Part shown: positions 26,337 to 28,754 of the stretch, in pieces | Position numbering within the stretch: position 1 is the stretch's first letter | How the letters are laid out: each line of letters opens with the position of its first letter | Assembly (NCBI GenBank): GCA_945861435.1 | Contig: CAMAUX010000009.1 | Location: 62,001-126,000 of the forward strand | DNA length: 64,000 bases | DNA from: Chthoniobacter flavus | GTDB lineage: Bacteria; Verrucomicrobiota; Verrucomicrobiia; Chthoniobacterales; Chthoniobacteraceae | Direction: 5' to 3' | Translations under genes and position numbers: made by a program | The notes under the pieces: generated by a model | Told to the model about the DNA's origin: nothing | The model's database searches: none | Seen by the model: only the letters and a program-made list of their open reading frames with translations

Positions 26337-27185
26337 TCAACGCCGCGCAGCTTTGACCCTCAAGTTCGCCACCGTCTCCGGCGGAACCCGCAGACTTCCA
26401 GTGCCTGTCCCCAAGAAAATGTCCGGCTTAGGGGTCCCGTGAAAATCGCTGCCGCCCGTCGCCACAAGACCGTAGCGTTCTGCCAGCGCAAGATAGAAGG
26501 CAGACATCTCGGCGGTGTGTCGGCTGTACCATACCTCCATCCCACCAAGACCGGCAGCGCAGAGACCCCGGACAATCTCCTCCAAATGCGAGTCCGACGC
26601 CGGCTTCAACTGGTAGGGATGCGCAAGGACCGGCACTCCACCAGCAGCCTTAATCACCCGAATGGCCTCCGCCGGTTCAATCCGGGCTTGCGCCACATAG
26701 GCGGGACGCCCGCGATCGAGCCAGCGGGCGAAGGCGTCGTCGACGCTTTGTGCATATCCCTTGGCCACCATCACCTGCGCAATGTGCGGACGCCCGATAC
26801 TCGATCCCCGGCTGGCCGCGAGCACCTCCTCCATCGTCATCTCAAACCCCAATCCCCGAAGCGCTTCAACGATCCTCGGATTCCGCGTGTTCCTTCTCGC
26901 GCGCATCTCCTCCAGCGCGGAAAGAAGCTCCCCGTTCTCCGGATCAATCAGGTACCCAAGCAGATGCATCGTCCCGGGCGAATACTCCGCCGAAAACTCA
27001 ACTCCCGGGATGATCTCCACCAAACCCGTTGCCGCAGCCGCATCCCGGGCGGCAGCAAGTCCGTCGATAGTGTCGTGATCCGTAATCCCAAGAACCTTCA
27101 CGCCAGCAGCAGCCGCGAGCGCGACCAACTCTGCAGGGGACAGACTCCCATCAGACGCCGTGGTGTGCGAGTGCAGGTCGATCAT
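26337..27185 (-). CDS. PHP-domain phosphoesterase (YciV/RNase AM-like)
   Basis: A 282-residue metal-dependent phosphoesterase. The PHP metal ligands are present: HSHTTASDG at about 5, ITDHDT at about 34, GVEFSAEY at about 61, RPHIAQVM, VLAHPYQL at about 192 and GGSDFHG near 252. The length and motifs match the single-domain family of E. coli YciV (RNase AM), which removes phosphate from 3',5'-bisphosphonucleotides and trims 5' ends of RNA. It starts four bases after the NadD-NadK stop and is probably co-transcribed with it. Nucleoside bisphosphate removal would fit nucleotide metabolism, but the link is inference. Confidence 0.87.
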   Translation of the reverse strand: MIDLHSHTTASDGSLSPAELVALAAAAGVKVLGITDHDTIDGLAAARDAAAATGLVEIIPGVEFSAEYSPGTMHLLGYLIDPENGELLSALEEMRARRNTRNPRIVEALRGLGFEMTMEEVLAASRGSSIGRPHIAQVMVAKGYAQSVDDAFARWLDRGRPAYVAQARIEPAEAIRVIKAAGGVPVLAHPYQLKPASDSHLEEIVRGLCAAGLGGMEVWYSRHTAEMSAFYLALAERYGLVATGGSDFHGTPKPDIFLGTGTGSLRVPPETVANLRVKAARR

Positions 27186-27189
27186 CGCA

Positions 27190-28590
27190 TCAAAGCAAGG
27201 CGTTGCCCTGGGGGAACTGGATCGCCGAAATCTTCTCCGCCATATCCCGCTGGGCGGCGAAAACCATTTCTACCGTGGCAATACGGCTGTGCCGCGCATG
27301 CAGCGACACAGCAGGCCCCAGCGATCTCCCCCCCACATAGGCATTCAACGGGCGCTTCTCACCCCCAACCGAACGCAAAGTGACATCGGCTTCCGGAGAA
27401 AGAAGCGCGCTCTTCCATCCCGGTGGGCTCATCACGTTGGAGCCCGCAAGAATCCATCCCGGCGTGTCCGCTAAAAGCGGCGCAACCCCCATGGACCGGG
27501 CGTAAGCGGTCGAACCCGCAGCAGTGCAGACCAGCGCTCCATCCGCCACCAATTTTGGAATCCGCACCTGGCCGTTCACCTGCACCTCCAGCCATGCCGA
27601 CTGACTCGTGCTCCGCTCCACCCATGCATCGTTGAAAGCCAAATCCGTCTGGCGACTTCCATCGGGCGCCTCCGACTCAATGTAGAGCATCGGCATCAAC
27701 CGAATCACGAACTCCGTCTGCGGCATCGCTTCAGCAGGCACAACGTCTGGCTCGTTGAGAAGAAAGCCGAGGTGCCCCTGATTCACCCCGATGAATGGGA
27801 TCCGCTTGCGCCAGTGCTCATGGATCGCCCGCAGCATCGTCCCATCTCCACCCAAAACCAAAATACCCGCAGGGTTCTCGCGGTCCTCCCACTGCCGGTA
27901 AGTCGCTGCAAGAGCCATGGCCCGCGCGTTGCGCTCATCAGCAAAAATTAGAAGACGCGGATGCTCAAGGAACCAACGTGTCCTTTGCGCAGGAATGCGC
28001 CCCCGATAAAGGCCGTACCGTTCGATGTACGCACCCACCTCAGCCGTCACGAGCGGCGCGTACCCAAGACGCTTGAAGATCCTTTCTCGGATCTGCGAAC
28101 TCGCGCTGAACTCAAGCGGTGAAAGCCTGATCAACTGGTTCATCGGAGGAAGATCTGCAGCCTCAACCTCGTATCCCTCGCGGGCCATGATGCAAAACTT
28201 CAGCGTCCGCCACATCTCGCGCCCTCGCTCCCAATAAAGGTGGATGGGCGACTGCTCCTTTCCACCGCCCTTGCTTAGGTCGGAACCGATGACGTGCCAG
28301 AGCTCCCCCAAATGACCGTAACGCGACTCGAAAACATCGTTCGTCGTGAACGCGGCCGATTCGAGGTCAAACAAGTCCACCTCCACCTTCGGAATGCCGC
28401 GAAAGGTGATATCCGTCAGTGCCGCCCGATGCCATGGCTCCACATCGTTGGTCGTCGGCTTGTCAGGACGGGGCCCGCACGGGACCACGAGAATCTGATC
28501 AAAGTGCGGCACAAGCGCCTCGACCACCGTTCGGTGATGGATGCCCGGGGGGTTGAAGCTCCCTCCAAAAATCGCAATTCGTGGACGCAC
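27190..28590 (-). CDS. Fused nicotinate-nucleotide adenylyltransferase / NAD kinase
   Basis: A 466-residue protein combining two NAD enzymes. Residues 1-195 are NadD-like: GGSFNPPGIHHR at 9-20 is the nucleotidyltransferase HxGH region, WHVIGSDL is at 98, and FSASSQIRER at 161 matches the ISSTxIR block. Residues 205-466 are NadK-like: VLGGDGTMLRAI at 245, LAFNDAWVER at about 326 in place of the usual NE motif, and LVADGALVCTAAGSTAYARS at about 348. One chain would therefore make nicotinate adenine dinucleotide and phosphorylate NAD to NADP. No stop or frameshift separates the halves. It starts upstream of the PHP gene with a four-base gap. Confidence 0.88.
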   Translation of the reverse strand: MRPRIAIFGGSFNPPGIHHRTVVEALVPHFDQILVVPCGPRPDKPTTNDVEPWHRAALTDITFRGIPKVEVDLFDLESAAFTTNDVFESRYGHLGELWHVIGSDLSKGGGKEQSPIHLYWERGREMWRTLKFCIMAREGYEVEAADLPPMNQLIRLSPLEFSASSQIRERIFKRLGYAPLVTAEVGAYIERYGLYRGRIPAQRTRWFLEHPRLLIFADERNARAMALAATYRQWEDRENPAGILVLGGDGTMLRAIHEHWRKRIPFIGVNQGHLGFLLNEPDVVPAEAMPQTEFVIRLMPMLYIESEAPDGSRQTDLAFNDAWVERSTSQSAWLEVQVNGQVRIPKLVADGALVCTAAGSTAYARSMGVAPLLADTPGWILAGSNVMSPPGWKSALLSPEADVTLRSVGGEKRPLNAYVGGRSLGPAVSLHARHSRIATVEMVFAAQRDMAEKISAIQFPQGNALL

Positions 28591-28754
28591 TTTTTGTCCT
28601 TACACGGCCAATTAAACAACTGTCAATGCCATGGCCTGCCCAAACCTTTCCCATCCTCTCCCTTCTTGGAACGTCTGCAAATGGGGGAGCCGATGGGGGC
28701 GTTCCCCATGAATAGCGTTGCAAACCCCTCCATCGCTCCGGAGGCTCTTTGCAC

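Follow-up and report, generated by a model that had tools for sequence, protein, structure and literature searches.

The window analysed here is a stretch of 64,000 nucleotides from Chthoniobacter flavus (contig CAMAUX010000009.1, positions 62,001 to 126,000). Reading of its frames revealed a protein of 466 aa on the minus strand (28590-27190), encoded by one open frame with a GTG start and without an internal stop, in which a complete NadD-type domain is followed by a complete NAD kinase (NadK) domain. The features of the locus are listed below by their positions in the window.

28597-28601, minus strand: AAGGA ribosome-binding site, six bases 5' of the GTG (from the sequence)
27190-28590, minus strand: NadD-NadK fusion protein, 466 aa, GTG start (open frame; 31-row alignment of homologous fusions; AlphaFold2 model)
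27991-28590, minus strand: NadD domain, about aa 1-200 (TIGR00482 at aa 7-195; fold match of the domain model)
28534-28566, minus strand: GGSFNPPGIHH, NadD nucleotide-binding motif, aa 9-19 (His19 invariant; Gly replaces the first His of HxGH)
28087-28107, minus strand: SASSQIR, ISSTxIR-like motif, aa 162-168 (Arg168 invariant)
27199-27963, minus strand: NAD kinase domain, about aa 210-464 (PRK04761 at aa 220-459; fold match to solved NAD kinases)
27832-27852, minus strand: GGDGTML, aa 247-253, with the catalytic Asp249 (GGDG invariant in the 31-row alignment)
27628-27633, minus strand: ND, the NE/D short motif, aa 320-321 (Asn320 invariant; FNDAW in 38 of 41 fusions)
27493-27543, minus strand: DGALVCTAAGSTAYARS, conserved region II, aa 350-366 (Asp350, Gly359, Ser360 and Tyr363 invariant)
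26337-27185, minus strand: PHP-family phosphoesterase, 4 bases downstream of the fusion (PF02811; NF041577 at 208 bits, cut-off 400)

Pfam searches placed CTP_transf_like at aa 7-170 and NAD_kinase (PF01513) at aa 242-277, both above the cut-off, and NAD_kinase_C matched weakly. Among the NCBIfam models, the NadD model TIGR00482 matched aa 7-195 (2.7e-17) with 63.4 bits against a curated cut-off of 112.45, and the alphaproteobacterial-type NadK model PRK04761 (NF003406) matched aa 220-459 (1.4e-40) with 139.1 bits against a curated cut-off of 211. As both scores fall below the curated cut-offs, the two domains are divergent members of their families and were not assigned to these equivalogs. 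These results agree with the original prediction that NadD and NadK are joined in one uninterrupted frame, and all the motifs it had named (GGSFNPPGIHH, SASSQIRER, GGDGTMLRAI, ND and GSTAYARS) were present in the fusion.

In the 31-row alignment, His19, Arg168, GGDG at 247-250, Asn320, Asp350, Gly359, Ser360 and Tyr363 were invariant among the fusions. The second His of the NadD (H/T)xGH motif was always kept, and the first position was Gly in most fusions, also in those of family f18, which have no other recognised NadD, and Thr in some. Arg168 of the NadD ISSTxIR motif was found in 31 of 31 fusions, with the Ser positions differing in a few. In region II of the NAD kinase (D...TAY), Asp350 and Tyr363 were invariant and Thr361 was present in most fusions. 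It has been documented that the equivalent Asp, Asn and Tyr are vital in the M. tuberculosis NAD kinase, where mutation kills the activity (PMC8553519). The ND of the short motif had been taken for a departure from the usual NE, but this view did not hold: the published motif is NE/D (PMC8553519), and ND occurred in 38 of the 41 fusions (as FNDAW) and likewise in the separate NadK of the window genome, so a degenerate motif was rejected. The GGDGT form of the NAD kinase motif has been linked to polyphosphate use (PMC8553519), and its presence in the fusion serves only as a lead in that direction.

The AlphaFold2 model of the full-length fusion had a pLDDT of 89.8 and a pTM of 0.90, and structure comparison of this model matched the kinase half to solved NAD kinases with Z of 24-26 over 235-266 residues. 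Because the comparison of the whole model chiefly probed the kinase half, a separate model of the NadD half was built and searched. The results showed a pLDDT of 93.0 and Z of 19-21 (about 20) to solved NaMN/NMN adenylyltransferases, with CoaD at about 15. Solved NadD structures with bound NADP (4s1o, 4ymi) were in the match list of the NadD half, and they make NADP feedback on this half conceivable.

We then looked for the fusion in other genomes, a check suggested by the original prediction, and found 41 homologous fusions in several phyla. Full-length homologues with 38-76% identity occurred in Verrucomicrobiota, Acidobacteriota, Myxococcota/Deltaproteobacteria, Planctomycetota and Latescibacterota, and a scan with one genome per species recovered 18 fusion loci in these five phyla and one uncultured proteobacterium. 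Two fusions from the same genus (G002, G003) were 68-69% identical to that of the window, and G038, a genome of the same order, carried a fusion at 54% identity. The fusion is rare in even phylum samples, being found in 8 of 388 genomes of Verrucomicrobiota, 7 of 195 of the phylum of G068 and 8 of 396 of the phylum of G062. The NadD tree grouped the 41 fusion domains in a single clade (support 96/89) adjoining two NadE-NadD proteins, at a clear distance from the 12 rows of ordinary NadD. The NadK tree likewise united the 41 kinase domains (100/100) and separated them from 35 rows of ordinary NadK. A single supported clade for each domain is consistent with one fusion event and subsequent vertical descent, and the patchy distribution suggests that the fusion has probably been transferred horizontally.

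Whether a genome also keeps the ordinary genes varied in a graded series. The window genome carries a separate NadK (C22, a frame of 325 aa) and also a separate NadD (C48, 157 bits), with intact motifs in both, and in its genus the fusion comes in addition to ordinary nadD and nadK. G038 kept a separate NadD, and a profile search found no NadK there besides the fusion. Neither separate gene was found in family f18, which was sampled with 59 genomes, two of them closed (G455, G462). No separate NadD reached the TIGR00482 cut-off in profile searches of these 59 genomes; in 54 of them the full-length match was the frame of the fusion or a shortened part of it, and the others were fragmented assemblies. 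The PF01513 search of f18 returned the fusion and otherwise just short weak matches, which lay in longer frames such as other kinase families have, and the single PF01513 match in the closed genome G462 was the fusion. Searches of 11 f18 genomes with PF01467, which covers the NadD, NadM, NadR and CoaD types, gave as full genes CoaD, an RfaE2-PurN protein and the fusion, with weak partial matches in three besides. The fusion therefore appears to be the sole NadD and the sole NAD kinase of f18, as judged by profile searches that could miss a strongly divergent isozyme. Both reactions are essential in bacteria, and the f18 fusion most likely performs both because it is the only NadD and NadK found. 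As a separate observation, the RfaE2-like nucleotidyltransferase and PurN-like formyltransferase of f18, identified by eye, share one frame at L171:745-1929, L170:745-2049, L176:505-2031 and L178:847-1950, all on the minus strand.

To describe the surroundings of the fusion, we begin with the PHP gene of the window, whose predicted four-base gap to the fusion was confirmed by the coordinates (27190 and 27185). This short distance suggests that the two genes are probably co-transcribed, in the window genome only. No PHP homologue was found beside the other fusions at the loci searched, and the phosphoesterase was rejected as a functional partner for this reason. Genes of NAD metabolism accompany the fusion elsewhere, and some relatives share an operon with NadE: the fusion is followed by PncB and NadE at L043 and by NadE and an NrtR-type regulator at L044, and an NrtR-type gene lies about 3 kb from it at L042 and L052. 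In a Planctomycetia genome (L045:384-4474), nicotinamidase, KptA, ADP-ribosylglycohydrolase, NADAR, PARG-like and Nudix genes form a cluster that ends in the fusion and resembles a locus of NAD/ADP-ribose turnover or repair. Two radical SAM proteins and an adenylyl/cytidylyltransferase-like protein directly precede the fusion at L042:3063-5956 and L052:3066-5959. Upstream of the L043 fusion (L043:2798-4048) lies a divergent cysteine-hydrolase-like protein that had no Pfam or NCBIfam match and whose likeness to nicotinamidase was seen by eye only. Moreover, the phylum sample of Acidobacteriota contained two NadE-NadD fusions, L195:1-2118 (G1046) and L196:1-2088 (G1043), in which NadD is C-terminal to NadE, and G1043 carries a NadD-NadK fusion as well.

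The computations establish the architecture, conservation, folds, single clade per domain and genomic complementation. From these we infer with a probability of about 0.85 that the window gene encodes a bifunctional enzyme that would adenylate NaMN and phosphorylate NAD, with a separate NadE acting between the two steps; both activities, the preference for NaMN and any coupling are predictions. The single-chain NadD-NadK fusion itself is genuine, and both of its halves are most likely active. The N-terminal half would convert NaMN and ATP to NaAD and PPi, the separate NadE would amidate NaAD to NAD, and the C-terminal half would phosphorylate NAD at the 2' position with ATP, or perhaps polyphosphate, to yield NADP. 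The likely benefit would be fixed stoichiometry and co-expression of two steps, the one that commits to NAD and the one at which NAD and NADP part, and both a loose complex of the fusion with NadE and product feedback between the halves may exist. The original prediction had coupled NAD formation to NADP formation. In the deamido pathway, however, NadD produces NaAD rather than NAD, and amidation by NadE is needed before NadK can act; NadE was present in 20 of 20 genomes tested, so this coupling would not be direct, and channelling straight from NadD to NadK is unsupported. The presence of NadE in the tested genomes, the NadE and PncB neighbours and the NadE-NadD fusions favour NaMN as the substrate and disfavour channelling of NAD between the halves.

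Since the window genome has intact separate nadD and nadK, the activity of its fusion is not forced by necessity, and the fusion there could be an acquired, redundant copy that contributes little or nothing while the separate genes do the work. This would agree with the absence of conserved neighbours of the fusion and with its distribution in family f1, where it was confined to the window's genus among the genomes searched. However, the fusions of the genus, at 67-75% identity in the alignment, have kept the frame and the key residues, and the window gene has a good ribosome-binding site. We consider a redundant copy unlikely. It had been anticipated that separate functional genes combined with lost catalytic residues would speak against the fusion as an enzyme; the separate genes do exist, but no loss of catalytic residues was seen except at the first His of HxGH in the NadD half, where Gly stands.

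Another possibility is that the N-terminal half is an NMN adenylyltransferase that makes NAD, which the C-terminal half then phosphorylates, so that the two steps would be consecutive and NAD truly channelled. Human NMN/NaMN adenylyltransferases matched the NadD-half model with Z of 19.6-20.1, nearly as well as bacterial NadD (Z 20-21), and the fold therefore does not decide between NMN and NaMN. The genomic evidence points the other way: NadE was present in every genome tested, the fusion stands beside NadE at L044 and beside both NadE and the NaMN-forming PncB at L043, and in L195 and L196 a NadD of this very subfamily is joined to NadE, indicating the deamido route. We regard an N-terminal half that acts on NMN as quite improbable. 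It is less plausible still that one or both domains act on another nucleotide, in a pyridine-nucleotide side pathway or in repair, instead of on NaMN and NAD. The variation of the NadD motif, the divergence below the curated cut-offs and the ADP-ribose turnover genes at L045 would fit such a role, but the NadK active site is conserved and the f18 fusion is the only protein found there for two essential reactions. Finally, the concern that a frameshift or an assembly error had joined two genes was rejected as having a negligible chance of being right, because the 41 homologous fusions across several phyla come from independent assemblies.

The bifunctional reading can be extended to a three-enzyme NADP assembly, in which NadD-NadK would bind NadE, NaAD and NAD would pass between the sites, and NADP would feed back on the N-terminal half. 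We consider this extension speculative and rather improbable, and we hold equally tentative its corollary that G1043, with a NadE-NadD and a NadD-NadK fusion, would preserve such an assembly in two covalent traces. The two kinds of fusion together do suggest that the enzymes of the last steps in NADP synthesis associate physically.

The component domains are already known. In the open literature that was searched, we found no description of the NadD-NadK architecture or of its sole-copy status in a family. Here one chain would carry two essential, non-consecutive steps of cofactor synthesis, and in f18 neither activity seems to have another source. A stoichiometric or allosteric link between the supply of NAD and that of NADP thereby becomes directly testable. 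The fusion also offers a natural NadD active site without one motif histidine, and its recognition would avert false calls of missing nadD or nadK in metabolic models.

We compared the fusion with the known systems it most resembles. It shares with bacterial NadD (TIGR00482) the fold (Z about 20), the second His of HxGH and the Arg of the ISSTxIR type, but has Gly for the first His, is fused to NadK and belongs to a well-supported clade separate from the host's own NadD. The NAD kinase model PRK04761 / NF003406 gave the best profile match, with a near full-length alignment, a compact N-terminus and the WRGAL and KRP C-terminal blocks in common, whereas the fusion is only about 30% identical, has ND instead of NE and has NadD attached. 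NadD-YqeK and the MJ0917-type NADP phosphatase/NAD kinase fusions (NF005519, NF010678) also contain NadD or NadK but, judged by the NCBIfam model names alone, have other partner domains, and neither combines NadD with NadK. The NadE-NadD proteins of L195 and L196 have a NadD of the same subfamily, 40-42% identical to the NadD half of the window fusion, but their partner is the intervening NadE, N-terminal to NadD. Alphaproteobacterial plasmids carried standalone full-length NadK relatives with about 30% identity. In addition, Sinorhizobium phage Phosso (PV764938.1, 31941-32633) encodes a NAD kinase with 33% identity to the fusion's kinase half.
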